In this document: positions 1 through 49,720 of the stretch, piece by piece
Position numbering within the stretch: the first letter of the stretch is position 1
Layout of the letters: every line of letters starts with the position of its first letter
Program-made: the position numbers and the translations under genes
Assembly: GCA_030278955.1 (NCBI GenBank)
Contig: JAOANR010000004.1
Location: forward strand, 682,001-746,000
Origin: Hygrophila difformis
Taxonomy: Eukaryota > Streptophyta > Magnoliopsida > Lamiales > Acanthaceae
Length of the DNA stretch: 64,000 nt
Reading direction: 5' to 3'
The notes under the pieces: model-generated
Told to the model about the DNA's origin: nothing
What the model saw: only the letters and a program-made list of their open reading frames with translations
The model's database searches: none

Positions 1-960
1 CCCTAATCTAAGCTTGATCATCCATAAGCATGCAACATTATCCCAAGAAAAAGTCACCAAGCAGTGACATAAAAATGCAAAAACAAGAGTCAAATGACCC
101 AAGGAAAATGAAAACAGTAAGATCCATGGGGTGTGAGACCCATTTCATGATTTTGGGACACAAATGGAGAATGTTTTCCCATTTCATTAAACGGTGTTGT
201 TCATACTCATGGTTTGAGTACCACAAACCCTTAAACAAAAGTTTATAACAAAAACAAGGTTTAAAACTGGCTGCCTAATCAAAGTGCAGTAAACTATTTC
301 TAACTAGTGCATAAATTAAATAATACAAAAGAAAACCTAACTAAACTACCCTAAACTAAACTAAACTACTGAACTCCCCAACTTGTCTTCAAGAAGGTGT
401 AGTTTTTCTAAAATTCTTCCAACCTTTAGCTCAAAGGAAACACCTCATATTTATAGAGGGGAAACCCTAAGCTCATGGGCCTTGATTTGAGCCCATTGTG
501 TCTCAAGACATCACACACATCACAGCTTTGTCCTGGAGCACCAAGTTTGGTCGCGGAACATACTGCATGTGGCAAAGCTTCTCGACTGGGTCTTGTGTCT
601 CTAAAACTTTATCTTGGTCGCGGAATGGACCTTTGTCGCGGAACAGGGCATCGCGACAAAGGTATCGCGCCAAGGGACTTTGGCTGGTCTCTTCTTCATC
701 TGGGCCACTTGGTCGCGGAACTCCTCCTTTGTCGCGGAACACTGTATCGCGCCAAGGGACTTCCGCGACAAATGTCTTCCTGGGCCTGCTGGGTTGGGCC
801 AGATGGGCCGAAAATATTCTTTTTGTGGGCTTTTCTCTCTTTTTCCCATCTTTTTTGTTTCCTTTTCTTTTTCTCATGTTTTTGGATTTTTCTAACATAA
901 ATATGTAATAAAATTACATATTTATGTCTTTTTCACACCAGCTTATTATTTTTACAATTA
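1..960 (-). mobile_element. Probable LTR fragment of a retrotransposon, minus strand
   Basis: No protein-coding signal is convincing here. Read on the minus strand, a GC-rich hairpin array (548-775) is followed by a TATAAATA box (complement of 448-455) and a leader-like stretch. This is the same order seen in the LTRs elsewhere in this window. The left side runs off the window, so neither LTR end nor a target-site duplication can be checked. Calling it an LTR is inference from layout; a promoter region of an ordinary gene is possible. Confidence 0.4.
548..775. repeat. GC-rich hairpin array, 'GTCGCGGAA' type
   Basis: Several copies of GTCGCGGAA and of its complement alternate here. Exact inverted repeats include CTTTGTCGCG (631-640) with CGCGACAAAG (652-661), and TTTGTCGCGGAA (728-739) with TTCCGCGACAAA (761-772). 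The phrase ATCGCGCCAAGGGACTT occurs twice. Open frames across this stretch are by-products of its composition. Confidence 0.8.
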
Positions 961-2220
961 TGCATAAATCAGTCCAATTCGACTGCTTTCTTACTTAATG
1001 TAAGACCGGAATGCGATCAAATGCCCGTTTAAGACACGGAAATGGATTGAAAATAATGGTCATTTCTGGCCATTATCATTTGCCCTATGTTAGAAAGTTT
1101 CAGGATGTTAACCAAGTTCTGGGTGGCTTTAACTCACCGGCTGATGCTCGGTTGCCAACCCCCTCCCCCTCGTATGAGAGCTTCTTATTGATCTTTACTA
1201 TTGTACATATTGACACTTTTCAGGCCTAGCTAATCACATAACGCACACACTTTGGACAGGTATCTGTTGGATAAGATGTAAGCCCTAACAACATTGAGTT
1301 GCACAGTTCACTTGAGTCCCAAATTGATATGAACAACTTCCTTGCTGAAATGCTTACCACCACAACATCTGGAACCAACCCCTTACCAGCCTCAATCTAC
1401 ACATGCTGCCTCCACCGTTGCACCACTCATCAGTAGAGGTGGGAAACAATACATGACACTCGCCAACATCATTGCAACATCAAATCAAAAGGGGAAGGGG
1501 AAGATGGATTAGACAACTGCTTCTATGTTGAAACTTTTAACTTATTTTGGTGGAGTACATATTTTGTATATTGCCATGTATAGGCATTTTTTGAACAAAT
1601 ATTGTGTGTGAAACTGTTGTGTACATGTGAACTCCAACAGCTACTGCTTCCCACATATAGGGACAACATGTTTAGTGCATCGTTGCATAGGCTTGTGTCC
1701 ACTTTATCTCATTTTGGGACACTCACATATTCAGCATTTTGTATTGACACTTCTGTCATAGTTTGGCCATAATGCAGCATTATATGCAACCCATTTGTTG
1801 ACCTCTAATCTCACTCTATTTATTGATTTCTTAAGTTTTGGCAAGCTGCATCTACAAGTGTTAATTTTGTTCAATGAACTTCTTGTATTCAATTTTCAGG
1901 TACCAATTGCCAACTTCATGTATGAACTTAGCCTTCAAACACCATTACATATGCAATATTTCACTCACAAACACCATTACATTCCACTCTTCAAACACCA
2001 TTAAACAGAAATTTACCGAAACATATACAATATTTCATTCACAAACACCATTACATTCCACCCTTCAAACACCATTCACAACCACAAAATCTACAAGGAA
2101 TGTCACTTACTAAGGGCAATGATGAACTTACATTCCAGCCTTCAAACCATTGCCAACGTTCATACATTAATCCACCAAAACTCATAACACTTCCAAAACA
2201 AAACACCAACATACTACAAC
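961..2220. other. Intergenic spacer with a possible C-terminal coding relic
   Basis: A plus-strand frame from about 1349 to a TAG at 1510-1512 reads like the end of a protein, with a basic tail ending KGKGKMD. It has no start codon or recognisable family, so it is noted only as a possible exon relic. The rest is AT-rich with a short direct repeat (1948-2076). Nothing else supportable was seen. Confidence 0.3.
1948..2076. repeat. 55-bp imperfect direct repeat
   Basis: Copies at 1948-2002 and 2022-2076 differ at three positions and share the core CACAAACACCATTACATTCC. The spacing between copies is 74 bp. Shorter pieces (TTCAAACACCATT) occur just upstream and downstream. Confidence 0.8.
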
Positions 2221-2734
2221 TACAGTACAAATAGAAGTACAAGTGACTGAACACAGACTGCAAATCCTAGCATCAAACAGGCCAGCTTCCAACCAAATGC
2301 CACTCTCAGTTCAACTCTACCTTGCTGCGGATCACCAAATGCCGTCTCCGGGAACCTGCCGCCAGCCTCCTCCTCTGCTCGTCCTCCATTCCCAATACCA
2401 TTGTCTTGGCTTGTAGGTATCACTTGCACTCCACTTGGTTCCCATTGCGCCTTATCAGAGTCACCCACGCTACAAAAGATCGACATCCATTCCTCCCACG
2501 GCAGCAATAGAGTTTCCCCTCATTCCCAATCCTCGTCGACTCCACAACCCTAATCTTTGCCCTCTCTCCACACCTGCAATACGGCGTCCTTGGGTAGCGA
2601 AGATCGAGTGTCTTCCTCACCGCTAGCTGCCCCTTTCTTGTTGCGGATTGGGTTGAAGCTGCACTCGACGTCGTGCCCTTGCTTGAACTCCGCTGCATTT
2701 TTTCCGTTCGTTCTAGGGCACAAATTCGTTTCAA
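2221..2734 (-). pseudogene. GRF-type zinc-finger protein, frameshifted
   Basis: The 104-codon frame starting at 2734 has a basic, serine-rich N-terminus and then a GRF-type zinc-finger core. It contains CRCGE, then LYCC, then GCRSFVAW, which matches the C-x-C ... C ... C-x-F-x-x-W pattern of plant GRF proteins. Just after the tryptophan the natural continuation (GDSDKAQWEPSG...) lies in another frame, which runs to 2220 and ends in a hydrophobic stretch of about 20 residues resembling a C-terminal membrane anchor. That order (short N-terminus, GRF finger, C-terminal membrane segment) is typical of small plant GRF proteins. The frame change near 2475 means a pseudogene, a sequence error or an unrecognised intron. 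Its cellular role is unknown. Confidence 0.5.
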
Positions 2735-8575: not shown

Positions 8576-9126
8576 GGGGCGGCTAAAGACCCGCTATTCT
8601 TACTATTCTTACTGACTTCACCCCCACCCTCTTTTTATGATGACCCCGGCTATTCATACTACTTCGTTTGCTAACATCACCCCACCTCAATTTTCTTCTA
8701 CCCAAAATACCCATAATGCTGCAAAAATAATTGAGGGAAAAAAAACGCACATTCCTACATACACCCCACCCAACCTTATAATCCCAACACTTACCAAAAC
8801 GTCTTTCTTCTACCCTAACCCCACCCCATCGATCAAATTTGAAGAACAATGCTAATTGGAGAAGAAGACCACGACAAACAAGAACATCACAGTTGTTGAC
8901 CATGACCATGGATAGAGCCCAGGTAAAGTAAAAAATATTTATCTGCCTCTATTTCTTTTTTTTCTCTCCCTGCCATTGTTCTCATTTTTCCCATACCCTA
9001 ATTTTTAGCTTTACCAGATTGAGATGAGTGTTTGGCGTTTTTCTTTTGGGATGAGGAAGATGGTGTTCGACCCTGGTGCGATGGACACGCATGGTGTTCT
9101 TCTACTTTGGTTGTCGGACACGAAGG

Positions 9127-9290
9127 AGGATGCACGGCGCTGGGTGCCGAACGCCGAAGACACGGATCGGCGTCGGGTGCCGAATGCCCTTGCTAGTGTG
9201 CGGGCATGAGCGCCGTGCGCACTTCGTGTCGTTCGGCATCGGGTGCCGAACTCAGCGCACGCTGAACGGCCATGTCTACCGAACGGGTTC
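9127..9290. repeat. Left hairpin array of MULE A
   Basis: GC-rich block with alternating GGTGCCGAAC and GTTCGGC-type words, for example CGTTCGGCATCGGGTGCCGA at about 9229, which can pair across a short loop. It is the mirror counterpart of the block at 11405-11605. Confidence 0.75.
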
Positions 9291-9687
9291 TCCCTGTTTG
9301 ACATTACTTGTGTCGTGACTGCTCTTTGTTTGGGAGGGTCTTCCAGGGACCGGTGATGTTACAACAATTAATTGAGAGCTTAATTTGGCACGTACAATTA
9401 AATGATAAAATAATTAATTGAGAACTTAATTTTTCAATGCTAAAAAGTCAAGTAATGTCCATCTCAACCTGTAATTATGATTGTTTTTTTGCTAAACTGT
9501 AACTGTGATTGTTGAGTATCTGTGATTCTGTGAATAAGCAAGTGTATTCGTCCCTTTATTTGTTTATGTGCCTTTCTATTTCCACCAAACCCTTATGCCC
9601 TTGCCCTTCTTTTCCATCTCATTATGACTTCTAAATGGAATGTGGATCCTTTTTAATGTCTAACCATTGCAAAATGATGTTGTGCAG

Positions 9688-9726
9688 GTGCATTTGGTTG
9701 GTGGGTTTGATGATATCTCACCTCAA
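9688..9726 (+). pseudogene. Exon-like fragment, possibly from NTAN1
   Basis: After an AG acceptor the frame reads VHLVGGFDDISPQ and then meets a GT. The motif resembles the VHLVGGF segment of protein N-terminal asparagine amidohydrolase (NTAN1). Only 13 codons support this, so it could be chance. If real, MULE A captured a host fragment. Confidence 0.25.
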
Positions 9727-11300
9727 GTCTCGTCAACCATCCCTGCTTTTAGGACATTAACAAGAATGAACATGGACGGCAGCAGCTTCAAGATTTGTTG
9801 AAGAATCTGTAGCTAAAAATGTGAACGACATTTTCCCCTTCCCCTTATATGCCACATTTCAATTTAGTTGGCCTATTTCCTTCCGACTAAACCTGTAACA
9901 TATTTACAATGGGTAGTCATCAACTATTACCAGCATGTACCTCTCAAATGATATCCGAATACATTATACATTCACCATTTTGTCAGTTCCTCTTAAAATT
10001 TAGTTTGCCTATTTCCTTCTAAATCTCCACTACTTTTTATCTCTTCTACATGGGTCCAAACATTAAAACAAGGTTCAATTTTTTTTCACAAAATAAAAAT
10101 TTAATAACAAATTTAATATGTCAAAAGTAAAATACAAAAATTATTCGGCTTCGGCTCTCCCCTCAAAAAAAGTAAAATACAAAATTTGCTATGTCAATAG
10201 ATAATACAAGTCATCATCCTTCTGTGCATTCTCTTCATATTGTTCAGAATTATGACCCGTTTTTTTGTCATCCTCAGCATTCTCTTCATATCTTCTTCAG
10301 AATTATGAGCCTGGTTTACTTTTCTGTCATCCTCAGCATTATTTTGAGAATCTACCATTGGCTTGTGATCATTTTGGATGTAACCCTTTGGAGTGGAGGA
10401 TAGTCTTCTTCCTACATACACACACATATATGATAAACAAGCACATAAAGAATGACAGAAATTTGATATGAGATGCATAGCAATAGATACAACAGTTTAA
10501 TTTATTAAAACAAGGACCCGAGAGTGTTCATCGTAAGATTTCCTTATAAACCGCTGTAAGTTGAATTACATATCTCATATTTCACTCCAGAAAAATTCAG
10601 TCAAAAAGATTAAAAGATTGATGAGGACATGCGACCTTACAAGATAGAGAGAATATGAACAATCAATGACTTGCTGCCAATAAACATGAGACCTTTCAAG
10701 ACCAAGTTGGTAGCACTTTGGACAAAAAAAAAATATGTTCATGGCTCATTCAATTGTGCATGAAAGAATAGCAATTACAAAATGAAAAAATAAGCACTAC
10801 AAATCAAAATTATAGAAACCGGTCCATTATACATGCATTTCATAGCTTGAATAGTCAACTAAATGTACATTATATTAAATTGTGATTATCAAGCTAATAT
10901 AAAACCCTGCATTTTAAATTATGTTTATCATTGAATTAAGAAATTAAGCAATGTCAATAGAGAATCCACAGGAAACATAAATTTTTCATAATCCAGGTAC
11001 CATAAAAGAACAAAAGTTTTGCACTGTGTCTCAAACTAAGTGATGGTTCCATGTTTTACACATCACAAATGCTTTCTTAGCCTAAGATTTCACAGTAAAT
11101 AAATTGTCTCAATTCATGTTACTATGAGCCAAACCCAACTTGAAATTCCAATGAAGGTCGCATCTTATCATGTTTCAGTATATGCAAGTACATAGAATCA
11201 TGTTTCTGTAGAGCTTAAAGCTAACACATGAATCCATGTTCTAGTGTCCATATCAAATATTCAGGTAAGTAAATGCATATACATAGAATCTATTTGCCAG

Positions 11301-11380
11301 AAATCATCATCCTGATTCCCTAGTGAAAAAGCTATAGTGCAAATCATCATCCTGATTCCCTAGTGAAAAAGCTATAGTGC
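11301..11380. repeat. Perfect 40-bp tandem duplication
   Basis: The 40-bp unit starting AAATCATCATCCTGATTCCC occurs twice head-to-tail (11301-11340 and 11341-11380) with no differences, just inside the right hairpin array of MULE A. Confidence 0.95.
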
Positions 11381-11404
11381 GATTATAATGCAAAAAGATA
11401 AGGT

Positions 11405-11605
11405 ACCAAGGGCGTTCGGCACCCGTTGCCGTGCGGAACAAAAAGCGTTCGGCACCTGTCGCCGTGTGGAACAAAGGGCGTTCGGCACCCGACGCCGCAC
11501 GCTCACTGTGACATTCGGTGGCCACCGCCGAGCAGAACAAAGGGCGTTCGGCACCCACTGCCGAACGCCACGAAGTCCATCCATCACACCAGGGCCGAAC
11601 GGCCA
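11405..11605. repeat. Right hairpin array of MULE A
   Basis: GCGTTCGGCACC recurs about every 33-70 bp, each copy followed by a partial complement (TGCCGTGCGG, CGCCGTGTGG, TGCCGAACGC) and often by the spacer GAACAAAGGG. Stems are short and GC-rich. Confidence 0.8.
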
Positions 11606-12474
11606 TCATCTTCCCAGCCTTCCAAAATGTGAAAACACTCTTCCCCAGCCCCAAATTCAATTATCCACATACACAAATACAAGTAACTCTTTCTAAATCA
11701 ATACATCTAAATTCAACTTCTGCATAAAATCAAAATTCTTAACCTGTAATCCTATCCCATTTTGGTGAGCAAGTCTATCCATGGCCTTCTCTTGCTTATT
11801 CTTCCGGCGAGTTCTTCCTGTGGTTGCTGTGCGGTGATTGAGCGAGTGGGAGAGAGGCGGTGGCTGCGCGGTGTGTGAGTGGGAGAGAGGTGATGGTTGC
11901 GCTGATTCTTCTTGGAGAGATACGAGCAGGGTGAGTGAGTGGGGGTGAAGATGATTAGGGGTGGGGTGTATGAAGTATAGTTAGTTCCTTATGTTTTTAA
12001 GTCACAAGGGTAATAGTGGAATTTAGCTTGGTGTGTATTTAGAATTATAAGGATATTTTGAATTTTTTGATGGGGCAAAGTTAGTAATGGGTGATGATAG
12101 TAATGTGTAGAGTACAAATAGCCCGGGTCTTTTATGATACCCAAAATGCCCTCAACCGAAAAAAAAAAAAAAAAAAACAACATACATACTAATTTCCTAC
12201 ATACACCCTATTACACAAACCCCAATTTCAAACCCTTCTCCATCCTCCAAAACTCTAACATTTCCAAACACTCCACCCAAAATCAAACTCTTCCCCCACC
12301 CTCCAAACCCTAATTTCTTACACATACCAATGTTCAACAATGCACACATTCTTGGCAAAAAATAGTAAAAATCAAAGAAATAATGGTGTAGAATAATTGT
12401 CCAAGAAATGGAGGAAGAATGGTCACATTTGGATGAAGAGATAATGATTTAAAAATTCTGAAATTTCAAAATTT

Positions 12475-12672
12475 TCGCACAGCCGTTCGGCAATGGTCCG
12501 CCGAACGCATAACACACCGCGCGGCAGACCGTGCCGCACGTGAAGAAGACCGTTCGGCCGAGGTGGCCGCGCGTCGCATGTAACGCACGGCCAGGTCTGC
12601 CGCACGCCTCATTTGGCGCACAGCCAAGCCGGTCGCGCGGGCTTCAGACCGTTCAGCCGTGATGGCTGAACA
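12475..12672. repeat. Left hairpin array of MULE B
   Basis: Exact stems include CGTTCGGC with GCCGAACG (8-nt loop, about 12483-12506) and GTTCAGCC with GGCTGAAC (5-nt loop, about 12651-12671). GTTCGGC and GCACGGC-type words are mixed in the same block. Confidence 0.8.
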
Positions 12673-12754
12673 GGTCTGTAGACATTTTTTTTTGTTTGTT
12701 TGTTCTCATTCCTATTTCAATACTTTTTTATTGCATAAATCACCTTCTTTTGAG

Positions 12755-12903
12755 ACGAAATGGAGTGCTACACAAGCCGTTGATAATTCAATTGGAAATG
12801 AGTGGAGCACGGATGTCATTGGCACCGACTACACACACAAATTCACGACTCATTATCGTTATCTAGAACCATTGAATTTGGATAAAGTTACTTGGGCGAT
12901 GTG
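12755..12903 (+). pseudogene. Relic of MULE transposase N-terminal exon
   Basis: The frame contains IGNEWSTDVIGTDYTHKF, which corresponds to IGNELSIDVIGEDFTHVF in the first coding exon of the MULE C transposase. It ends at a TGA (12901-12903) soon after the shared region. No other transposase sequence survives in MULE B. Confidence 0.75.
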
Positions 12904-13462
12904 AACATGTATGAGAATTCTCAATGTTGTGCTTTAGATTCACGCAATTCTTATGCCACCAACTTCGCATCGTCCACCTAATATCCAACAACAACAAAAA
13001 TCCACAAACAGAAACAAATAAAATGTGTGACATTTATAACAGATTCATCTTGAAGCTATAGTAAATTAAAATCCAAATGTTCCCAAATATCAAAATTGAA
13101 TAACATCGATTTAAGAAACAAAGCTAATATCACAATTATCACACACAAAGGGTGATCGTCGGGCTGATGGCTCCTCGTGGGCGAAATCCTGAGCCGACTC
13201 GACTGGATGTGCAACATGATCTACAACGGGCGATCGTCGCGCAACTGGCTCCTCGTGGGCGTGATCTTGAATCGGCTCATCCACCTCCGGCTACTGAATA
13301 TGATGCTCTACTATTGCAGCATTATCTCCATCATCTCTAAGCTGCCGGACCCGTTGAGCTCAGACTAATGGTGTAGGCCGAAGACTATGATAAACTTTTT
13401 GATCTGAAATTCAAGCGGCAATTTATAAGTATAAATACCAAGCATAAGAGATAAAGGAGATA

Positions 13463-13477
13463 GGGGGGGGGGGGGGG
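13463..13477 (+). repeat. Run of 15 G
   Basis: Uninterrupted G homopolymer just before the right hairpin array of MULE B. Its length is a likely weak point of the assembly. Confidence 0.9.
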
Positions 13478-13484
13478 AGTGGAA

Positions 13485-13840
13485 CAGACCTGTTCGACAG
13501 TGAGGGTCGAACAGGGTTAGAACCTTGCGGCCACATCTGCCGCACAGTCTTGGTAGCGTGCCGACGACGATAATGGAATATATCTTAAATTAAAGCGAAA
13601 TCTATAAGTATAAAAACCATGCCTAATAGAGAAAGAGAAAGAACAAAAAAAATAAAAAAAAATAAAGTCAGCAGGTAACAGACCTATTCGGCCGTTTCTG
13701 CCGAACAGGCTAAAGACTGTGCGGCCATGTCGGCCGCACGGTCTCGGTAGCGTGCGGCCGAATGTGGCGCACGCCTACCCTGGTGCGCGGCGCTTCCCGC
13801 CGTGCACATCACCTATTGTTCGGCACACCAGTGCCGAACA
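13485..13840. repeat. Right hairpin array of MULE B
   Basis: Exact stems include CTGTTCGAC with GTCGAACAG (about 13489-13513), GTGCGGCC with GGCCGCAC (about 13719-13739) and TGTTCGGCAC (13817-13826) with GTGCCGAACA (13831-13840, 4-nt loop). The block lies just inside the right end. Confidence 0.8.
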
Positions 13841-14798
13841 GAGCCCGTCCTCAACCTCCAACATCTCACTCTTGGCCATTCAAAACTCTATCCAAATGCA
13901 ATTTTAAACACCAAAAACATCAATGTACTATTACTAGACCTAAATGGAAGTGTTGTAACATTTTAATTAACATTTCCAACAAATGGGTCAAGTAAACAAA
14001 TCAACCATAAGTAGTCTAAATTATTTACTTTTGAATCTGTCCATGGTGCTTGTTCTTGCTTGGATTGAATAGTAGGCTCGGTTATGAAGAAGAAAAAATG
14101 CACAATGAAGAGAATGCACTTGATTCCGATTGATGTCGAGATAGAGGAAGGGAACGGGCGCTGCTCTTCTTTTCTTTCCTTGGTGTTGCTCGATTGAGAG
14201 AGAGAGGAAGGGAACGGGGTGTACACGGGTGGGGTGTATGAAGCAATAGCTAGGATTTGTTTCCTTTTTTTCCATAAGGGTATTTAGGTATTTTGTTATG
14301 GTGTGTATTTAGAAATTGGTATAATTTTTAAAGATTTGGTTGGAGTATGTTTAGTAATGGGGTTATGCCAGCAAAAATAGGTGTACGAATAGCCCGCGTC
14401 GCGGCTAAAATCACTCTCCCACATTCTAAATCCACCCTCCCCCAATTTTCCCATACACAAATTGCCCTTCACTAATTCAAACATTAAAAAAAAACATTAC
14501 ATTTTACTATTCTGAATCCATCCCACCCCTCAATATTAAAAAAAAAAAAAAACATTACACTCTATTATTCTAAATCCACCCCACTCCAAACATACAAAAT
14601 TCACTCTAAACCCTAACATATTCTAAACCTAGTTCCACCCAAAATAATACCACCACAAAAAATGAAGAAACACAAGGATTAATTATCAAGATTCAAAGAA
14701 GAAGTGAAGGTGGAGTCATTAGCTGACAAATGGAGGAAGGAAAAGCACTTTGGAATGTAGAGGTAATGCTCCAAAAACCTTGAAATTCGTCAACTACG

Positions 14799-15000
14799 CA
14801 CAGACCGTTCGGTACAGGTCATCCGTGCGCGTTGCATGACGCACGACAGGTTGTGTCGTGCATGACACAACCCGCACGGCAGGTTGTGCCGTGCATGCTC
14901 AACCCGCACGGCAGGCCTGGCCGCGTGCAACACAAGGCGCACGGCAGCAACTGCCGTGCGCTACACAGTTCGCACGGTCATGTCTCCCGTGCACTCTGTT
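14799..15000. repeat. Left hairpin array of MULE C, upstream of the transposase
   Basis: Two neighbouring hairpins share the loop GGTTG but differ in one stem pair: GCACGACA/TGTCGTGC (14841-14861) and GCACGGCA/TGCCGTGC (14874-14894). A third is CGCACGGCA (14938-14946) with TGCCGTGCG (14952-14960). The array ends about 50 bp before a splice acceptor that opens the transposase exon, so it lies in the 5' leader or first intron. Confidence 0.85.
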
Positions 15001-15049
15001 CTGCAATTTTTTTTTTGGGGTTTTCATGATATATTTGTTTTTTTATACG

Positions 15050-18066: not shown

Positions 18067-18204
18067 TGTATGTTGTTTGACAAGTAAGTTGTTTGATAAG
18101 GATCCCGAGACAGTAGTAATGTATCTATGGGTTGTTATGTGAAAACTGGTAGTTATGTGAAAACTGGAAATTATGTTCCAAAACTGGAAACTGTGACACT
18201 AGAA

Positions 18205-22487: not shown

Positions 22488-22493
22488 AGTTTT

Positions 22494-31800: not shown

Positions 31801-31803
31801 AAG

Positions 31804-31816
31804 TGGTATCAGAGCC
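31804..31816 (+). promoter_or_regulatory. Primer-binding site of element E
   Basis: TGGTATCAGAGCC, the usual initiator-Met tRNA primer site of plant gypsy and copia elements, lies three bases after the LTR end. Confidence 0.9.
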
Positions 31817-32773
31817 CGGCTTATTTTTAAATTAGTATTTTTAAACCTATTATTATTATTATTTTTAAACTATTATTTTTAAACCATTATTATTTTTGAA
31901 TTATTATTGAAGCCAAATTATTATTTTGAAAGTGTCCTAGCCCAAATTATTTTTAAGCCAAATGATAATTATTTTGACCCAATATAGAGGTCCAAGAATT
32001 TTAACTATTATTTTTAAATTTTTAAAGCATTATTTCCATGGAAATGAATTTCTATTTTAAAACCCATGGAAAAAAAAATATATAGTGCATCAATTATTTT
32101 TGGGGGGAAATCATCATCTGCATGTGCATACCACATTTTTTTTCTATACCTTAGAGAACCTAGAAGCGATATGTTCTAACTTAGATCTTTTGCTTGCACT
32201 AGATCACTTAGACGCTTGACATCGAATTAGAAACGCTCACTAGAGACTGATCTTGCCGTAGTTCTGGATCTCATTCATCTATGCGCTCGCCTAAGCATAA
32301 CAAATCCTCGGTCTTAGCCATTTCTACCCGTGTACGAATTAGAAAATTTCCTTATGTGGAGCAATAAAAATCAAGTTTTTATTAAAACACTCTCTATTCC
32401 AAAAAAATTTGTTGGATTCCCAAACAACAAATCCATTTCAAACGCACTGCTCATTAAAACCTTGACCCGAACCTTCTTGAGAATAATAAGTAGGCAGTTA
32501 TGAGGACATAACTGAAGTCCTAAGGGGGAGAGGATGTAATACCCCGTAAGATAGACATTTATTTTTGACAATATGTATTCCGAATAAATAAATAAACAAA
32601 TTCAAGTTGTTTTGAACTACGTTATGGCTTGATCCCTTTACCGGGTACGTAGGCAGCTTAGAAGTTTTAATTCTAAGTTCAGTCACAACATAATAAAACA
32701 AACACAAGACCTTAGCACGAGAAAAGCCGAAACACAACTTCGAGGACGAAGTTGATTCTTAAGGAGGGTAGAC
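31817..32773 (+). other. Interior of element E, with polypurine tract
   Basis: No gag or pol remains. TTCGAGGACGAAGTTGATTC at about 32739, followed by the purine tract AAGGAGGGTAGA (32761-32772), is the usual 3' end of a chromovirus interior. A second tract-like AAGGGGGAGAGGATG followed by TAATACCCCG at about 32521 suggests a remnant of another LTR start or a duplicated end. Confidence 0.6.
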
Positions 32774-35217
32774 TGTAATACCAGTGAATTTTCCATCATA
32801 AAATAAAACGATAATTAAATAAATAAATAATAAATAAATTAAATACTATAAATAAATAAACAAATCCAGCAAATAAAAGAAATAAATAAAGATAAGGAAA
32901 TGAGAAATGAGATTTTTACTTAAAAAGGAATTAAAGGAATTTAATTCAACAAAAAGGATGGATAAATGGTACACCAAAACCCGACACTAATGAACTCGAG
33001 TATTCGAGTCCAAAACATCCAATTAGACTGAGAATAAAATTAGAGAGAAAGTAGAAACCCGAATATACCCCGGAAATCGGAATTCGGGAGCATAGAGGGA
33101 TAGAAACCCGAAAGAGAGGCGGAAAAGCACGACGGATCGCACGACCCGCCCGGACCGAAGTCCAGGCGAAGTCGGCGCGGTGGCCGCGCGGTGAAGTGGC
33201 TTTAGCGCGCCACGACCGCGCCACTTCACAGATTCGTTTGTTGCGTGAATCTCTCGCCCCAACGCGGATTTTTCGACTTTCGATTGAACATCTCTCGACT
33301 CCAGACATTTAGGTCGGTTGTGGACGCCCTAGGGATTAAGAATTCTATAAATAAGCCCCTTGGGAGCCCCAAACAAGTTTACAAAACCCTACAATCTTCT
33401 ATACGTTCGAAACCCTAAATTCGGAGTCGACGGAAAGCACCAAACGGAGGCAGCAGCTTTGGACGAAAATCCAAGGATCTCCAAACGTTGTGGTAAGCTC
33501 TAGTCCGACAAATCTTTTCACGTTTCAATCCGAAAACGGATTCTAACTTCGGTTCTTTTCTTTCTACACCCCGTATCGAATCTAGATCGTAGAACCCGAC
33601 GAACGGAGAGGAGAAACGGTGATCTGGAAGCCACGCCTCCGAACTAGACATCCCCGACGTTCATAGACACTGTAAGTTAACTCTTACATGGTTTTGGGAT
33701 GAATTAAAACATTCAAAACTAAAAGATTAACATGAAACCGAAATTCTGTCAACTATTACTTTCTACCGGCGCAACAGATTTGTTGAATTTTTCCGAACCT
33801 TAAAAAGAACTCAAACGGAAAAACTTAAAACATGAAAAACGTTCCTAAGACTTAGACCTAGCTACTGTAAAAATTTGGGAATTTTTGGAGTTGATTTGAT
33901 ATGTGAAAACCCGTTGAAACCGAACTGTTTGATTCTAGATCTCGAAATCTTGGACAGAACTTAGGAATGATCTTGATCACGTTTTTGACATAGGATCTAG
34001 GCTGTTTTAGATCTTTGGCCAAACATGAAAGTTGTAGATAAATGTCTTAAGATGATCTCTGTCAAATTTCATTAAATTTGGAGTTGAATTGCTATGGTAG
34101 AATTCAAAATCTTTAAACTGTGATGCATTAAACTCGGACAGATTTGTTCTTATGCGAAAATTGGCGATTTTGACCTACTTAGGTATCTCGGATTGAAAAA
34201 TTTAAAACACAAAAGTTGTAGATCTTGATGGTTCCGAGTCAGATATGAAATTTTGGAATTTTTGGAATTAAATCTGAATTTAGACGAATTTAAGAGTAAA
34301 CGATGGTTGACCGAGTCAAATCTTGAAAAATCTTGTTGAAAAAGATTTTGAATGATATCGGAGCGGATAGCGTCCTGAAATAGTATATTTTGAGAAACTT
34401 ACTAAACTTGAGAAATTAGCCTTTAAGGTTTAAATGATTGGAAACTCCTTTGAAATAAAATACACATGAAATATCTTGCTTGCCGAAAGGCAATTGAAAT
34501 ATACTGCTTGCCGAAAGGCAATTGAAATATAAAACTTGCCGAATGGAAATTGAAATATAAACTTGAAACATGAGACATGAGATATGAAACTAGGAGACTC
34601 GAAAATTGTTCCTTTTGGATTATGCTTTTAAATTATGTCCTATAATTATATTGCTTTGCAAATTATATTTATGCTCTTATGAAATCTCTATCCTTTAAAT
34701 TATGCCATTTAATTATTGTTAGATAAATGAGTTAAATTATGTGGTGTTGTGCACATGTTTTCTTTAAATATTAAATAATGGCTTTGAAACCCCATAGTTA
34801 TGTATGTGTTAACTTACTCAGCACGTAGTGCTGACCAAAACCATATTTTCTTTTTCTTTATCTTCCAGAGTTGAGAATTATGCATCGTCATATGCATACA
34901 CGGGAAGCTTGGGATGATATATTATTTTAAATTTTTGTATTAGACTAGATCTTGTATGAACGGGCCTGTTTAACCCGTGATTAGGCCATGTTGGCCCTAT
35001 ATTTAAATTCCGCTGCGATACATATATGTAGATATTATTTTCCGCTTCAACTTTGATGTATTATTTTTAAATTATATATGAATGGGCTGTTTGAATGTTT
35101 TAAATTCTGAAAAACCATAGCCTTGCATCTCTTTAGTGAGCTCGGAGAAACCGTGCCTCGCTAGGGAGGTGTGGCGGTGACACCCCGACCTGGGTGACCA
35201 AAAACCGGGGTGTTACA
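32774..35217 (+). repeat. 3' LTR of element E
   Basis: It starts TGTAATACC directly after the polypurine tract and ends GTGTTACA. A TATAAATA box lies at 33346-33353, preceded by a GC-rich inverted-repeat block at 33120-33240. Open frames on the minus strand in the GC-rich part have no protein-like content. Confidence 0.78.
33120..33240. repeat. GC-rich inverted repeats upstream of the TATA box in the E LTR
   Basis: GTGAAGTGG (about 33192) pairs exactly with CCACTTCAC (about 33222), and inside it GTGGC pairs with GCCAC. Several GCGCGGT/ACCGCGC-type words surround them. The block ends about 110 bp before TATAAATA. Confidence 0.65.
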
Positions 35218-35219
35218 AG

Positions 35220-35687
35220 GAGCATTCTGAGGCTCCTTCACAGTCCACCCGGGGTACCCGAGGTGGTAGGGGCAGCGGTAGAGGGCGAGCTAGAGCTCAG
35301 TCACAGCAGCCACAGCAGTATCAGGCAGAGCCCGAGTGGGCTAGGACATTGATGATGAACCAGCAGAACCTGCTGAACACAATAAATGAGCATGCCCAGC
35401 TTGCAGCTCAGAGACACCATTTCTTGGCTGATCAGATAGCCAAGAATGCACGAGCTCAGGCCTACCACACAGCCCGACTGGAGTACTTCATGTCCCAGAG
35501 CTTAGGTCGGTGATACGTCGCTCCTCAGACACCTTCTGAGGACGACGATGATGAAGATTATGTGGGCTCTGGAGATGGTGATGATGATGCTGAGGATGGC
35601 GATGATGATGATGCTGAGGGTGATGATGCTGATGACGGATCGGAGGAGGTTGGAGACAATGAGGATTCCGATGAGGACACTGACTGA
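35220..35687 (+). pseudogene. Accessory ORF 1 of Athila, 3' part
   Basis: The frame resumes after element E with a Gly/Arg-rich stretch (GGRGSGRGRARAQ), a Gln-rich stretch, a probable coiled coil with RLEYFMSQSLG, and a very acidic Asp/Glu tail. A TGA interrupts it just after SLGR. RLEYFMS-SLG followed by RY-PP also occurs at the end of accessory ORF 2, which supports common origin. Roughly 250 codons expected between the two halves are missing. Confidence 0.6.
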
Positions 35688-36128
35688 GAGTGAGAGATGA
35701 GCAATAGATAGGCTTATGAGTGTTATAGATGACATGTATTGATAGGCCTATGTATTTGACTCTATTGGATTCCTTTTGCTACTTTTCAGTATTTTTCATT
35801 TGGGTTGTACTGTCCTGAACTCTATTTCCTGCTATTTTGCTATTCTAGTCATGTTATTTCCATTATTCAAGTTATCTAGATCATGTGAAACTTTAGATAG
35901 TTGTTATTTGGCTTTTAAGGTTCTTAGTTGTTTTTAAATTCAATAAAATAGCTCTTGTCAATTTCGTGTTAGATTAAACTGTTTTGAACTGTTGGATAGA
36001 TCAATGAGGTGTATATGGACTTGATTAAGGTGTAGAAAATGTGAGATTGGTATTGTTGATTGATTTGGAGATGTTGGATATCTTGGGGATGAACTTAGGA
36101 AAAACACATTCTGCCCGAATTTGGCACA
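35688..36128 (+). other. Spacer between accessory ORFs 1 and 2
   Basis: AT-rich and non-coding. It resembles the spacer after pol in composition and leads into hairpin array 3. Confidence 0.45.
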
Positions 36129-36465
36129 GAATGCGCCACACGCACTGTGTGGCGCCTAAAAAGGCCCTGCAGTGCCACATTGGCGCCTGGACACTTGGAA
36201 AATTTTCCAAGTTTTCCCAGAATGCGCCGCATGTGCTATGCAGCGCCTAAAACTGCTCCCATGCGCCACTTTCCGCGCCGCAAAAATAAGAATTTTTCCA
36301 AGTTGCTTCAGGATGCGCCGCATCTACTGTGCGGCGCCCAAATCACCCCTTGAGCGCCACTTTTGGCGCCGCGGACCCGAGCCTTTCTTCAGAATGCGCC
36401 ACACTTGCTGTGTGGCGCCTAAATTGGCTTCTGAGCGCCACATTGGGCGCCACAGACGCGAATTT
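36129..36465. repeat. Hairpin array 3 of Athila, upstream of accessory ORF 2
   Basis: Four units. Stems: GCGCCACAC (36133) with GTGTGGCGC (36147); GCGCCGCAT (36224) with ATGCAGCGC (36238, one mismatch); GCGCCGCA (36315) with TGCGGCGC (36330); GCGCCACAC (36396) with GTGTGGCGC (36410). Each ends GCGCCTAAA or GCGCCCAAA. Pairing survives exchange of A-T and G-C pairs between units. Confidence 0.92.
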
Positions 36466-36749
36466 TTGAAAAATCCGCGAATCCAAAAGATTCAAATCAA
36501 ATCCAATCGATTTTTGAGATCCAAAACTGCATTATACTGACTCTAAATCATATATTTGGTGTATATACAGCCTTGGATCCGATTATTCACCTCATATCTT
36601 GACCAAGTCATGATTTCACTCTCCACAAAAGGGGTATGACCGTTCCCTCTTGTTCATATTCTACAAAATCTGTCTACTCCCTTCTTGTTCAACAATTATC
36701 TCTCTAATACCTGTCCTATTCATCAAATTACTGTAAAAATTCGTTTCTC

Positions 36750-38240
36750 ATGGGGCCAAAGAGAAAATCAACCCGAGGAAACAAGAGAAATAATGCCGGA
36801 AAGAAGCAGAAAGCCACAGAACCTGCCCCATTACAGCCACCGGTTATCAGAGAACCTGATCCGGAGCCGGTTGTGAATGAATTGTTGGCTCCTGATTCAG
36901 TGGATGGAAATGAAACTTCTTTCAATTCTGCCCTTGATGGAAACGAGACTTCTTTCAATTCTGCTCAACCATCAGAGGATGATCCACAGCAAGAGGAGGA
37001 TGATGCTGAATCTCGAGAAGAAATTTCACCGGAGGGGGATAAATGTCCAAACGACTCTAAGGCAAAGAGGAAAAGTCATAATAGGAAGGACGATGCAATT
37101 GCAAACCCTCTGGAGGAATTAACTGGGGACACTTTCAATCCGGCTATCTTCATCAACCAGAAGGCATATTCCTATTATCAAAGAATGGTGGATAGATGGA
37201 TTCTTGCAGCCAAGGGATTCACTGAAGCTGACATGGAGCGGTTTTCGGTTCATGATGCTTTCATGAGTCGAGGATTGATGAAATTTGCTGCGCATCCGGA
37301 AGGAGTTTACTCTTGGGAGCTTACTAGGCAATTCTTGTGTAATGCCCAGTATGAGCACTATACTTCATGGATTAGGGGAGTGCCTGTGCCCTATGGCCAT
37401 GCAGTGATTAATGAACTTTATGGTACTATGGATGTTTCTTGTCCGGCTACAAAGAAGAAGCACTTCCATGACCCTGTTCATGCAGAGGAAGGAGGATCAG
37501 CATTGGAGAAGAGGATTTTGAGAGAGATGTTTGAAAACCAAGAGAGAATCCATTACATAGGGAAGGAGAAGGATAGCGTTGTTGCCACATCGATGACTGC
37601 ACCACTCTATCAGATCTACTTACTCTACAAGCATAAGGTGTACCCTATTTCCCACACTGCGCAGCCCAATGCAGAGGAGCTGTATTTTGTGTATTGTGTG
37701 AAGAACGGGCTGCCTATTGATATTGGGGAGATGGTGGCATATGAGTTGAGTAAAATGGGATCTGATGTGAAGAGGAAGGTTCTTGGATTTCCTGCACTGA
37801 TTTGGACTCTTTGTAAGAGGGCTGGAGTGGATCTAAGTGCATATGCTCAAGATGTAAAACCAAAGCCTCCTATCTGCTTCAAAACTAATTACACCAAGCC
37901 TGGAGTAAGATGTGCAGAGCTAGCTTACCCTACTTCATCTCGTAGGGCATCCACTCATCCCACTGATATACCTAGTACATCTGGTACTAAGGCTGAGCCT
38001 GTAGAGAGTGCAATTCACAGAATGACTTATGAAATTCATCAGCTGAGAGCCGAGATGAAGAAAAAGGAGGATAGTGCACAGACACAGATTGTACGACTTT
38101 CCACCAGACTTGAGTACTTCATGTCTGAAAGTTTAGGTGATCGATACATTCCTCCTACTACTAGTTCGAGCTCTACGGGTAGTGATGATGTTCCTGTGGA
38201 AGATGAAGTAGATGATTCGGATAGATCTTTAGAAATCTAG
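36750..38240 (+). CDS. Accessory ORF 2 of Athila, plant-transposon protein of unknown function
   Basis: Intact 496-codon frame. The basic N-terminus (KRKSTRGNKR) could be a nuclear-localisation signal. It is followed by an acidic region with two DGNETSFNSA repeats at about residues 50-72. A folded central domain spans about 110-390 (FINQKAYSYYQRMVDRW, MKFAAHPEGVYSWELTRQF, WIRGVPVPYGHAVINELYG). It resembles the 'putative plant transposon protein' family found beside Athila elements. A predicted coiled coil at about 420-465 and an acidic tail follow. It has no enzyme motif and no signal peptide or membrane segment, so a true envelope role is not supported. The first ATG of the frame is used. 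It lies about 285 bp after array 3. Confidence 0.7.
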   Translation: MGPKRKSTRGNKRNNAGKKQKATEPAPLQPPVIREPDPEPVVNELLAPDSVDGNETSFNSALDGNETSFNSAQPSEDDPQQEEDDAESREEISPEGDKCPNDSKAKRKSHNRKDDAIANPLEELTGDTFNPAIFINQKAYSYYQRMVDRWILAAKGFTEADMERFSVHDAFMSRGLMKFAAHPEGVYSWELTRQFLCNAQYEHYTSWIRGVPVPYGHAVINELYGTMDVSCPATKKKHFHDPVHAEEGGSALEKRILREMFENQERIHYIGKEKDSVVATSMTAPLYQIYLLYKHKVYPISHTAQPNAEELYFVYCVKNGLPIDIGEMVAYELSKMGSDVKRKVLGFPALIWTLCKRAGVDLSAYAQDVKPKPPICFKTNYTKPGVRCAELAYPTSSRRASTHPTDIPSTSGTKAEPVESAIHRMTYEIHQLRAEMKKKEDSAQTQIVRLSTRLEYFMSESLGDRYIPPTTSSSSTGSDDVPVEDEVDDSDRSLEI

Positions 38241-38357
38241 ATTCTTGATTAGATAGGATTGTTTCCTTTTTGATTTAAATTTGTCATGAGTATATTAATT
38301 TTAGTGGTATTTTGCTTGCTTTGAACTAGCATCTTGATGTAAGAATTGCTAGATTTG

Positions 38358-39775
38358 TGGGCGTGTTCTTCCTATTCTAGGTGTTGCCTTTCTTTTTCTT
38401 GCATTGTAATGAATTGAAATTGCCTCTAAATGTAATCTGCTATCATGTTCTTAATTTGTAGACGGATTTCTGTATTGTTCGTGTTAGAAGTATTCTAGAA
38501 CGGGAGTTCAGAATCACTTTGAAGTACGAATTTATCTTTTATGGAAGCAATAATATGTCGATGTTTAATTCTGTAATCTGGATTAATCTGTTTTGATTGT
38601 TAGAATGTGGATTAGAATCATGTACTGTCTACCAAAATTTGATCGATTATTAAGTTTGGATGAAAATCTGGATTTTGCTATTTTACTTGTTAAATCTGAA
38701 CTGATCGATTAATCTGCCGTCATATTAAAATCTGCCTAATCTGGTTTAAGCGCCATTCTGCCTGAACTTAGAAGTGAAAATTTCATGTTTAGGTGTAATC
38801 TGCTTTTAATCGATTAAGATGGATAAATCTGCTATTCTGCTAGAATCTGTATTAGGATTATCTGATAGATATTGCTGAATTGATCGGTCTTTTGTGTTTT
38901 ATCAAATCTGTGATTTAGAATATTAATCTGCTAAAAGCCTGACTGAACGATCAAATCTGTATTATCTATTTTTAGTAATCTGGCATTAATTCTAATCTGT
39001 CTGCATTTTAATATTATTAATTAAATCCAGTTTACCATGTTTTATTATTATTTTACCATAATTATTAGATTATTTACACTGTTTTGCATAATTTGAATGT
39101 TAGAATCTAATTCCATAAATTCTGCTTTGCAAAATCGGGAGATAAAAAGTAGAATTAATATTTTAGTACCGGAATTGGGAATAAATTACATTAAAAATGG
39201 ATTCTGGCATGTGCACAATGATTTGGGAAATGAAAAGTGCCTATTAATTGCTATAGGAAAATTTGTATGCTTGGGAAAGACTCAAATTTAGGCCTAGAAT
39301 AATGATTGCAAAATGTTAGATAATCTAATCAGCTTCCATGAAGTCCGTTTAAGCATAACTTGGAATTTTTAGTAGATTATTATATTTTTAATCTTTATAA
39401 AAATATTTAAATTTAAGAAATTGATTTTTAGAACATTGGGAAATGTCAAATCATAATACAATTTCTATTTTATAATAAAGATGGCAATATTTAAAATATT
39501 ACAATCAACTCCCATTAGTATTTTTATCAATTAAAATTTTAATTTGCTTTATTCTAATTTAATGTCATTGTTTTTAATTTAAATCACCATTAGAATTAAA
39601 CAAATCCTTTTCAAAATATAAAATATATTAAATAAACTTAAAACAATTAAAATATTCTCCAGAATGAATTAATATTCTGAATTCCCTTGGGTTCGACCCG
39701 GTATTCACCGGTTTTTATTACTTGATGACAACCATCCGCTTGTGGTAAAATATGAGTAGTGAAAATAACTCATCA
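38358..39775 (+). repeat. Athila 3' LTR, 5'-truncated
   Basis: Copy of 21070-22487 with about eleven substitutions, ending CTCATCA before the CTTGC repeat. The part matching 20260-21069 is missing. It joins directly to the 3' flank of accessory ORF 2, and no polypurine tract is seen, so a deletion probably removed both. Confidence 0.88.
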
Positions 39776-39850
39776 CTTGCGCACGGCGTGCCTTTCCGTG
39801 CACGCAGAGGCGTGCACGGCGCACCAGGTCCGAACGGACCTGGTGCCAGC
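39776..39850. repeat. Right hairpin array of MULE C, continued
   Basis: Continues the array cut by Athila at 20259. The best stem is GCACCAGGTCCG with CGGACCTGGTGC separated by two bases (about 39820-39845), a 12-bp perfect inverted repeat. Confidence 0.8.
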
Positions 39851-40372
39851 AACCTTCCATTACGCATCTCATTCACCCAAAACCCAATTTTATCCCCATA
39901 AAATACAATGACACACTTCCTAATGATAATATAATACTAATTGACCATTTATTATACTTCAAAACAACAACTACATCAAATGGGTTTGAATTGAAAGTTT
40001 AGAAACATAAACCCTAACCTTTTAGTTTTTCCATTAGCACAAAGGGATTTATGCTTCCTTCTTGGTGGTTGTTAAACAAAATTGATAAAGAAGTAAGAAC
40101 ACCGATTGAGAGATGAGGCTTTGGTAGTGAGTTTGGGGTGGGGGTGAGTTTGTTACGAGGGGTGAGGGGTGAGATTGGGGTGGATTGGGTGGGGGTGAAT
40201 TTAGAAGATGTTGATTTTTTTTTTTTATTTGTGTATATTTGGGTATAAAGGGTAGTAGGGTAATTATAGATGGGGTGATTTTAGAATTGGGTTAAATTTT
40301 GGATTTTTGAGGTGGGGTGAATTTAGAGCTGGGGTAGATTTAGTAAACCGTAGAGTCCAAATAGCCGGCCTC
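39851..40372. other. Right end of MULE C
   Basis: AT-rich subterminal sequence, then G-rich repeats of the type GGGGTGAATTTAGA, ending in the inverted terminus AGTCCAAATAGCCGGCCTC. No coding signal. Confidence 0.7.
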
Positions 40373-47115: not shown

Positions 47116-48837
47116 TAATAATAATAATTTTCACTTTTTCTTTTAAAATGATCACACACATTACCTTTAACAAAATAAATAACTTTCATTCTTACCATTG
47201 TAGCAACTATGCACAAGAGGACACCATTTTCCATATATCATATCATATCATATCATATCATATCGATCATAAGTCATGATCAGCATGCAGCGGACTCATA
47301 TACAGACACACTCCGGAGCCTCGGGTAACCCATCACGGATACACCCAAGAGTATAGACTCATACATGCAACAACGCCGTTTTGGCACAATTTATCAACAA
47401 TGCCGTCTTGGCATATTTAGAGGGGGAGGCCCCGCAAGACACATCCCTAGTGCATTAGCCCTCTATCAAGTATGGCATCTTACTCAAGTCAATAGTGCAC
47501 AATGGATTTAAAAGAGTTTTTCACAATTTTCCACATAATATCCTCTTTAAAAGAGTTTTCAACAATTTTACGGGAGTAACCTCATAACAAGGGCATTCAA
47601 TAATGCCAAATATCATTTCAATATTTAACTCCCATACTAATATCTCATAGATATGAAAATATCATTTCATGGATCTCAAAATCCAACAATTTCTCATTTG
47701 GACCAAAAATCAAGTCCAATGTCGCAGTTTACGCCAAGTCAGTTTAAAAATTCATATGAAAGGCGATTGCTATGAAATTCAAACTGTAGATACTCAACAC
47801 ATAGTTGAACAAGTTTTATGTTTTACACTTTTCAAAATAAGGTATGGAAAGAGTTCAAAAATAGAGTTCTTTAAAGAACATGTATTCTGCCATAAATTCA
47901 ATAGTGACTCTATAATTTTCAACAGGTTTTAAAAATAGTAATTCGCGACCAAAAATTCTAAAATTTTACCACAAGGTAGATAACACATAGATAAATATTT
48001 TCATGAAGAAACCATTTGGCTTTGAGACACTTAAGACCTTCAAAATGCGGATTTCAGAAAACACTATCGTTTCTTAGATTTCGGCAAAAAGAGATTTCGA
48101 CCTTTCGATAAAGCGGCTCCCATAACTTTTTCATATGAATTCTAAAAATCATAAAATTTTCCAGAAAGATACTCAAATCATTAAGGAACAAGTTTTATGA
48201 AGGAACATTTGAGGAATAATGAACCAAAATAGTTTAAACAAATGGATCTTTGCGTAAACGAAAAACTGGCAGATTTTGGTATAACGAGGGAATTCTAATT
48301 TTGTACTCTTAAACATGGATGGGATCTCCAAAAATTAAAGAGAGAGTGTTAACTTACTGAATTGATGTATAAGAGCATGGAGATTCAAAGATAATGGCCG
48401 TTATAACACAAGATTCGCACCACAAATTACGGGTTTCGCTGAAATTCGACAAATAGAGGGAAATCAATTTATAGTATAAAAATAAAAGATTTAGATCTCT
48501 AAGATACAAGTTTACAAAGAGGATATCTTACTAACCAATGTTGAGAAGAGTTAGAACTCTTAGAATGATGAAGGTTGCCAAGCCTACAAGACTCCACAAT
48601 CCTTAAGATATGCTCACTATGTGGGAGAACTTTGAAGAATAAAATGGGTATTGAATTTTTTTAATGAGATGGATGAGATTGGTGTGTTTGAAGGCTAGAA
48701 ACTCCCTCTATTTATAGGCTAAGATTTGAACAATTGAACATGACACATTGTGAGAGTGATTACAACCTCACCAATCATCCAATTAAGTGTGTCTTGAGCA
48801 ATAATGGTTAGAGTATTTGTATCCACTCATTTGGTCC

Positions 48838-48940
48838 TTATAGCCTAACAAATAGGCTATTAATTTGGGAGGCTATTAATTTTGTCCATCATGTTGTATA
48901 TTAACGTAATGGTTTGCCTATTATGGAGGCTATTAATCTT
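48838..48940. repeat. AT-rich inverted repeats upstream of the solo-LTR TATA box
   Basis: TTATAGCCT and AGGCTATTAA alternate (about 48837-48862, 48869-48880 and 48914-48938). They pair as short hairpins about 130 bp upstream of the minus-strand TATA box. This matches the placement of the GC-rich arrays in the other LTRs, though the stems are AT-rich. Confidence 0.5.
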
Positions 48941-49720
48941 GGTGGGTTCAAGAGATAATTGATCACATTTCTTTGCTAGCCATTCATCCAAGACACTTGC
49001 TAATCATGTTGATTTTTCATCTATTTGTTTAGGAAGAAAATTTTTTGCAATTGTTTTTAACCTTATATTTGTGTAAGTAGTGTATCATGAAAATGATTGA
49101 AGTATTAGCTTGTCTACAAAAATCATTATTCTTGCCATTATTTAGTGGCATGCATTTATACTCAATGAATTGGAAATGATAATATAATATTTATTTATTT
49201 ATTTCAAGTATTGTATTTATATTAATGTGCTTTCAAAATAATAATATACTTGCATGGTTTTATTTTATTTACAACAATACTCAAACCACAAAGTCTTCAT
49301 GTCATCATTAAATAAAAATTATAATCTATGAATATATTTACTTATATATAAAAGTTAATTCTCATAGATACACATAAAAACTCATATTTTTAATTTTATA
49401 AAAATTTGTTCCATAATGAATATTATCCTCATAATACTATCCTCATAATAATTTTCAAGACCAATGTATATAAACTTATATATATAATTTAAACAATAGA
49501 TTTAAAAAATATTCCATAAACTATATAATTCTATTACCCTTGATATTGAAATTCATATTTCTTTTGGAGAAGACAAATTTACATATATAATTTTACAAGT
49601 GTTGTTTTGTAGAAAAAAAAATCAATATACTAATTCTTTAAGCAAGTGTTTAAATATTTAATAAAAGTATACTTAATGAATTAAAATTATTTCGGGTAAT
49701 TTCTATGGTATTACATCGGT

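Follow-up and report, generated by a model that had tools for sequence, protein, structure and literature searches.

Spaced arrays of CpG-rich half-sites in nested MULE and LTR transposons of Hygrophila difformis as possible platforms for DNA-binding proteins

The window considered here, a stretch of 64,000 nucleotides from Hygrophila difformis (Acanthaceae; GenBank assembly GCA_030278955.1, contig JAOANR010000004.1, positions 682,001 to 746,000 of the forward strand), contains deeply nested transposons: MULE1, a Mutator-like element (MULE), lies in MULE2 and MULE2 in MULE3, and an element with long terminal repeats (LTRs), E, lies in an Athila-type Ty3 element that is itself inserted in MULE3. 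Short repeated half-sites are arranged in arrays in all of these elements and in an LTR fragment at the window start, and a sequence-only reading had described them as promoter-near hairpin arrays in unrelated transposons. The elements and their genes (ORF, open reading frame; TSD, target-site duplication) are the following, in window coordinates:

8576..40372, MULE3, own length about 6453 bp once the nested elements are subtracted, 9-bp TSD AAATCCAAA at 8567-8575 and 40373-40381, with MULE2 and the Athila element inside it
8588..14400, MULE2, own length 2316 bp, within the left end of MULE3, TSD GCGGCTAAA at 8579-8587 and 14401-14409
8642..12129, MULE1, 3488 bp, within the left end of MULE2, TSD TTTTATGAT at 8633-8641 and 12130-12138
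15607..17061, plus strand, MULE3 transposase: ORF 15607-16413 with the MULE domain (PF10551, E 1.6e-25), then ORF 16414-17061
18619..19863, minus strand, MULE3 plant mobile domain (PMD, PF10536) gene, convergent with the transposase
20260..39775, plus strand, Athila-type Ty3 element with gag and pol domains, inside the right array of MULE3, TSD CTTGC at 20255-20259 and 39776-39780
20260..22487, plus strand, Athila 5' LTR, TGATG...CATCA, followed by the primer-binding-like TTGGCACCGTTGCCGGGG
30127..30753, plus strand, first part of Athila accessory ORF A, interrupted by element E
about 30754-35217, element E, interrupting accessory ORF A
32774..35217, plus strand, E 3' LTR, TGTAATACC...GTGTTACA, its start having been placed by eye
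36750..38240, plus strand, Athila accessory ORF B, 496 aa, with Transposase_32 (PF20167, E 2.1e-21)

All three MULEs carry exact 9-bp TSDs and short, degenerate inverted ends, and their ends match one another at 62-70% over 66-174 bp. The Athila gag-pol encodes reverse transcriptase, RNase H and then integrase, a Ty3-like order, and is accompanied by a 3' accessory ORF with PF20167, which agrees with the assignment to Athila.

Inverted repeats are in clear excess over shuffled DNA. Scored with mismatches allowed, 59 of them were found in the window against a mean of 14.2 and a maximum of 25 in 100 dinucleotide shuffles made in 500-bp blocks, and six clusters of at least three repeats within 80 bp against a mean of 0.02 and a maximum of 1 in 100 local dinucleotide shuffles, so that the arrays reported by the sequence-only reading are indeed real. 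A scan for perfect stems (at least 8 bp, without shuffles) gave 79 repeats and one cluster only. The clusters are located in MULE3 (three), MULE2 (two) and the leader of accessory ORF A (one), the other arrays having fewer or wider-spaced repeats. Taken together, 13 array stretches (2843 bp), whose borders were placed by hand after inspection, hold 38 repeats, compared with a mean of 5.3 and a maximum of 12 in 300 array-only shuffles.

Each array was also tested against 300 shuffles of its own DNA, with scores either weighted for GC or equal; the minimum p is 0.003, and p values are uncorrected for the 13 arrays. With GC-weighted scores, p was at most 0.010 in all eight MULE stretches and 0.003 in both Athila accessory leaders, modest in the window-start LTR (0.023) and in the LTR of E (0.033), and doubtful in the Athila 5' LTR (0.126). 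Equal weights gave 0.027 for the left and 0.066 for the right array of MULE1, the latter being the weakest MULE stretch, 0.050 for the Athila LTR, and at most 0.023 for the remainder save the solo LTR. The AT-rich array that had been proposed in this presumed solo LTR was not above chance with either score (p = 0.206 GC-weighted, 0.196 with equal weights) and was dropped. The earlier list of hosts therefore stands for the three MULEs and both Athila leaders and, more modestly, for the window-start and E LTRs; it does not extend to the solo LTR, and the Athila LTR is not clearly an inverted-repeat array. The MULE arrays are listed below with GC-weighted p values, unless equal weights are stated.

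9132..9251, left array of MULE1, lying 490-609 bp in from its left terminus, p = 0.003 (0.027 with equal weights)
11414..11600, right array of MULE1, lying 529-715 bp in from its right terminus, p = 0.010 (0.066 with equal weights)
12477..12671, left array of MULE2, lying 392-586 bp in from the left terminus of MULE2 itself, p = 0.010
13492..13839, right array of MULE2, lying 562-909 bp in from its right terminus, p = 0.003
14807..14992, left array of MULE3, lying 409-594 bp in from the left terminus of MULE3 itself and 5' of the transposase gene, p = 0.003
18212..18397, internal array of MULE3, flanked by the transposase and PMD genes with their 3' sides towards it, p = 0.003
20142..20259, right array of MULE3, first part, 5' of the PMD gene and interrupted by Athila, p = 0.003
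39781..39846, right array of MULE3, second part, on the far side of Athila and about 0.53 kb in from the right terminus, p = 0.003

When half-sites were searched by similarity to a consensus (at most 2 mismatches), ignoring pairing, a strict spacing emerged in the MULEs. Among 34 neighbouring plus/minus pairs (gap of at most 14 bp) the gap is exactly 5 bp in 27 and 5-6 bp in 32, the step from a minus half-site to the next plus is exactly 12 bp in 17 of 27 cases, and the period is 33 bp; counted over the entire window, a gap of 5 bp is found 31 times in MULE arrays versus 5 times elsewhere. The two arms of a pair also change together, as paired arms agree at 6.47 of 8 positions in the 34 pairs, compared with 6.02 when right arms are redealt within arrays (p = 0.0004) and 5.62 when they are redealt across the family (p = 0.0001), permutations that leave the relatedness of the half-sites in place.

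The placement of these arrays is likewise regular. They had been described as lying near gene ends, whereas the constant is the distance from the ends of the element: in MULE1, MULE2 and MULE3, arrays start 490, 392 and 409 bp from the left end and 529, 562 and 527 bp from the right end, respectively (range 392-562 bp; MULE3 distances beyond the right TSD of Athila are accurate to about 1 base). This mirror placement is found in all three MULEs, including MULE1 and MULE2, in which the two MULE3 transposase pieces had no tblastn match at E ≤ 1. Since the three MULEs are relatives, it represents one inherited plan seen three times rather than three independent cases, and the related ends rule out an independent origin of the array in each MULE. 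As for coding capacity, ORF 16414-17061 of MULE3 had no Pfam match at E ≤ 0.01, and the PMD of this element is recognized as three pieces in profile order (32.7, 17.6 and 23.3 bits), each below the Pfam cut-off of 34.9. Weak tblastn matches of the PMD pieces in MULE1 and MULE2 (E 0.20-0.82) were treated as chance.

The arrays of the LTR elements, and the likely TATA boxes close to two of them, are:

20563..20893, plus strand, Athila 5' LTR array, TGCGCCGCA half-sites, run + 7 - 14 + 3 + complete three times, units 85-100 bp apart
28755..29020, plus strand, accessory ORF A leader array, the same run complete once and otherwise partial, p = 0.003
36120..36460, plus strand, accessory ORF B leader array, the same run complete twice and otherwise partial, p = 0.003
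33130..33230, plus strand, E LTR array, two GC-rich inverted repeats at 33147-33168 and 33174-33222, p = 0.033
33345..33353, plus strand, CTATAAATA, 114 bp beyond the E LTR array and the likely TATA box of this LTR
540..790, minus strand, window-start LTR array made up of TCGCGGAAC half-sites, with one inverted repeat (629-663, arms of 12 bp), p = 0.023, CpG observed/expected 1.02
448..456, minus strand, CTATAAATA, 85 bp from the edge of the window-start array and the likely TATA box of this LTR

In Athila one grammar is common to the 5' LTR and to the leaders of accessory ORFs A and B, namely a plus half-site, 7 bp, a minus, 14 bp, a plus, 3 bp and a further plus, and the 7-bp gap occurs in nine of 11 plus/minus pairs. 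Half-sites in the LTR are mostly direct (++++-+++-+++-++). The DNA after 35218 encodes a stretch resembling the C-terminus of ORF B (tblastn E 6.6e-07, with one internal stop and partly of low complexity), and since the two accessory ORFs are alike in this C-terminal stretch, a leader may have been duplicated along with its ORF. No homologue of the ORF B protein was found at E ≤ 0.001 among 7168 candidates, no solved structure matched it at E ≤ 1, and no relative of the Athila pol was confirmed in viral contigs; in sunflower, an Athila accessory ORF with PF20167 and a nuclear signal has been reported (PMC11728184). The Athila 3' LTR (38355-39775) corresponds only to the last 1421 bp of the 5' LTR (20260-22487; 99.1% identity), the first part with the array being absent, and the break lies about 115 bp downstream of the end of ORF B. 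The insertion of Athila fell inside the half-site array at the right of MULE3; a survey of insertion sites mentions a slight preference of Athila for palindromes (PMC6911290).

A fixed grammar cannot be claimed for E, which has two inverted repeats, or for the window-start LTR, where five half-sites point one way and one is reversed (+++++-) in a fragment assigned to the minus strand from its TATA box. The LTR arrays had been placed upstream of TATA boxes, which agrees with the E LTR (114 bp) and the window-start LTR (85 bp); it does not agree with the Athila LTR, as TATAWAW was not found within 600 bp after any of the three Athila arrays. TATAWAW recurs about once per kb per strand, and nearness to it alone is therefore weak evidence. 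The 9-mer CTATAAATA is found seven times on both strands of the window, another copy in the E LTR lying upstream of its array, and its presence at 85 and 114 bp supports nearness to a promoter for these two LTRs. The 5' LTR copy of E (30754-31800) is without the first part and the array present in the 3' LTR (32774-35217), and no TSD could be read; both copies carry a 28-bp tandem repeat of 3.4 units (31050-31143 and 34467-34560) downstream of the likely TATA box. The presumed solo LTR (46459-48990) starts with TGTAACACCCCG and has CTATAAATA on the minus strand at 48709-48717, with no significant inverted repeats upstream.

Because the MULE ends match and the Athila arrays share their grammar, the hosts reduce to about four lineages: the related MULEs, Athila, the E LTR and the window-start LTR. 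The carriers belong to different transposon orders, and to that extent the description as unrelated transposons is correct; within the MULEs (62-70% between ends) and among the three Athila arrays it is not. Half-sites differ between lineages, and the sequence-only reading had likewise described the stem sequences as different.

The arrays are rich in CpG, with observed/expected ratios of 0.94-1.46 in the 13 stretches; the ratio is 0.30 in gag-pol, 0.33 in the middle of MULE1 and 0.70 around the transposase, and the window as a whole has 0.65. The half-site order is CGG-CCG in the MULEs and CCG-CGG in Athila. CGG or CCG occurs in the stems of 28 of 38 repeats inside arrays and four of 21 outside before any control for composition; the control upheld an enrichment in the MULEs only (103 CGG plus CCG, mean 78.6 and maximum 92 in 200 shuffles), and a single CGG/CCG core in all lineages was consequently rejected.

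Folding was calculated at 852 positions on both strands with 20 shuffles each, and the z values are hence rough. They fell below -4 at 35 positions, the lowest being -7.7 in the MULE arrays, -6.3 in leader B, -5.4 in leader A and -5.0 in the window-start LTR, so that hairpins are conceivable for the latter. The E LTR array gave -1.6 to -2.6 (-3.5 on the minus strand just before it), and the Athila LTR array +1.3 to -1.6, with -2.6 at its 3' edge, i.e., an ordinary fold energy. The hairpin, which the sequence-only reading had taken as the common denominator, is ruled out as such by the mostly direct orientation of half-sites in the Athila and window-start LTRs together with the ordinary folding of the Athila LTR. 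What the MULE and Athila lineages have in common is a spaced array of CpG-rich half-sites, of which hairpins are one outcome. Outside the arrays, a strong fold was observed at 54526-54675 (z of -6.9 on the plus and -4.7 on the minus strand). A decayed chromovirus pol with integrase and chromodomain (PF00385) is present at 51367-53473, together with an inverted repeat pair at 51294-51409 and 54977-55090 (88.8%).

We propose, with moderate confidence, that each lineage keeps the arrays in its non-coding regulatory stretches as cis-acting platforms, with half-sites recognized by sequence-specific DNA-binding proteins. The Athila LTR keeps the spacing with neither a clear excess of inverted repeats nor unusual folding, which is better explained by binding sites than by hairpins; among the roles suggested earlier, protein binding fits best, while promoter shielding has no specific support. 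Clustering, CpG-richness, the fixed spacing in MULEs and Athila, and the mirror placement and paired arm changes in MULEs are observed; from them we infer a binder, encoded by the host or by the element, and an effect of its binding. Arrays of LTR elements would regulate promoters, which in Athila would be the gag-pol promoter and one for each accessory ORF, and the MULE arrays would act near both ends, either in the assembly of a transposition complex or in the local removal of silencing, as VANC does on VANDAL elements. PMD in MULE3 and ORF A and ORF B in Athila may be the element-encoded binders, candidates suggested by position alone.

Several observations weigh against this proposal. Tandem duplication of one unit could pass on both spacing and paired arms, and arm pairing in Athila is weak, the 11 pairs giving p = 0.033 when arms are redealt within arrays and p = 0.14 when they are redealt across the family. 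There is no motif common to all lineages, and CGG plus CCG is not enriched in the window-start LTR (6 vs. 9.8), Athila (29 vs. 37.6) or E (10 vs. 9.4). A blind scan gave 33 CpG-rich islands, of which 14 overlap arrays and several of the other 19 coding pieces, which rules out that such islands are exclusive to arrays. TG and CA are the products of methyl-C decay, and their observed/expected ratio in the MULE and Athila arrays (1.21-1.42) is not below that of gag-pol and the MULE1 middle (1.12-1.42), therefore a simple history without methylation is not favoured. Several arrays, the window-start LTR among them, fold strongly. One copy per element was examined, and no VANC-like domain is present in the scanned ORFs, the five MULE3 pieces giving only the MULE-type transposase and PMD, although unspliced ORFs could hide one.

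The strong folds would be expected if the arrays were a source of RNA hairpins: folded transcripts would be processed into small RNAs that initiate silencing, and the arrays would persist by also serving the promoter. Indeed, 20 of the 35 positions with z below -4 overlap arrays (MULEs, leaders A and B and the window-start LTR), and palindromes and miRNA-like structures of maize Sireviruses attract small RNAs and CHH methylation, according to a maize survey (PMC10760457). However, the Athila and E LTR arrays fold less strongly, half-sites are mostly direct in two arrays, and the production of small RNAs needs no fixed spacing, which makes this origin unlikely. The tandem units visible in the window, of 33 and 85 bp, would instead suit a mutational by-product, in which short-unit duplication and the correction of palindromes during replication build and tidy arrays that do nothing for the element; the correction of quasi-palindromes is known as a source of mutations, and the relatedness of units alone could give paired arms. 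Such an explanation has to face the equal distance from both ends in three of three MULEs (relatives, in which it is possibly inherited), the single grammar at three sites of one Athila element and the high CpG of arrays in otherwise CpG-poor elements, and we regard it as rather unlikely.

The position of arrays before the TATA box in the E and window-start LTRs would also be in line with host transcription-factor enhancers, gained independently by each element and working without an element-encoded binder; the repeated-motif (RM) boxes of Sireviruses are reported mainly to match sites of stress-related plant factors in PLACE (PMC2829016). On the other hand, half-sites differ between lineages, and MULE arrays occur at both ends even where no transposase was detected and, in one case, between two gene 3' sides, so that enhancers of this kind appear improbable. 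A broader version of protein binding, i.e., VANC-like self-regulation across plant transposon orders, with MULE PMD-type and Athila Transposase_32-type proteins reading the grammar of their own element and keeping the islands active so that CpG survives, is weakened because TG and CA are not lower in the arrays, and we consider it very improbable. The more restricted proposal of lineage-specific binding platforms remains the one that we prefer.

The RM boxes of Sireviruses are among the closest known systems. They are described as high-copy, palindromic and CpG-island-forming motifs, found ahead of the TATA box and a second time ahead of env, and as Sirevirus-specific when judged against other Ty1/copia elements (PMC2829016). 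The present arrays resemble them in occurring in LTRs and, with the same grammar, before both Athila accessory ORFs. In two other respects the picture is mixed, as the CGG-CCG order is that of the MULE half-site, with enrichment confined to the MULEs, and likely TATA boxes lie near the arrays of E and the window-start LTR, unlike those of Athila. The carriers differ, being a Ty3/Athila element, three MULEs and other LTRs, of which E and the window-start LTR are unclassified by protein, and Athila departs from RM boxes in its CCG-CGG order, in lacking a CGG/CCG enrichment and in having no TATAWAW after its arrays. The maize survey reports hairpins that are concentrated in the LTRs of Copia elements and, in Mutator elements, biased towards the terminal inverted repeats, and Ty3 elements generally without an obvious hairpin peak (PMC10760457), unlike the Ty3 element here, which has arrays and folds strongly in two accessory leaders, not in the LTR. 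Retand elements often contain tandem arrays, and antisense ORFs thought able to bind DNA (PMC11963269).

The MULEs can be compared with Arabidopsis VANDAL elements, whose VANC proteins recognize short motifs that are tandemly repeated in non-coding DNA, and strip it of methylation (PMC5735166, PMC10398659). MULE3 similarly has a short, lineage-specific motif repeated in non-coding DNA; unlike the VANDAL motifs YAGTATTAY and AGTTGTCC/AGTTGTAC given there, the MULE motifs are inverted and CpG-rich, no VANC gene was found in the scanned unspliced ORFs, and MULE3 carries a PMD gene.

The subterminal repeats of Tam3 and CACTA elements are short motifs in both orientations near both ends, in other superfamilies and with other motifs. 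No report of such arrays in Athila or MULEs was present among the matches listed, which comprised titles and abstract openings, with subscription journals mostly outside coverage. The features that we regard as new are the 33-bp MULE grammar with its mirror placement and covarying arms, and a Ty3/Athila element with one type of array before gag-pol and before both accessory ORFs. If the spacing is conserved between copies, the role of the accessory proteins (Transposase_32 and PMD) would become testable, with candidate binding sites in their own element. Whereas earlier accounts present such motifs as Sirevirus-specific (PMC2829016) and maize Ty3 elements as largely without hairpin peaks (PMC10760457), a Ty3/Athila element and a MULE family here show spaced half-site arrays at defined places, and on the tests made these arrays appear like a mixture of the Sirevirus RM-box and VANC/VANDAL kinds, being a member of neither.

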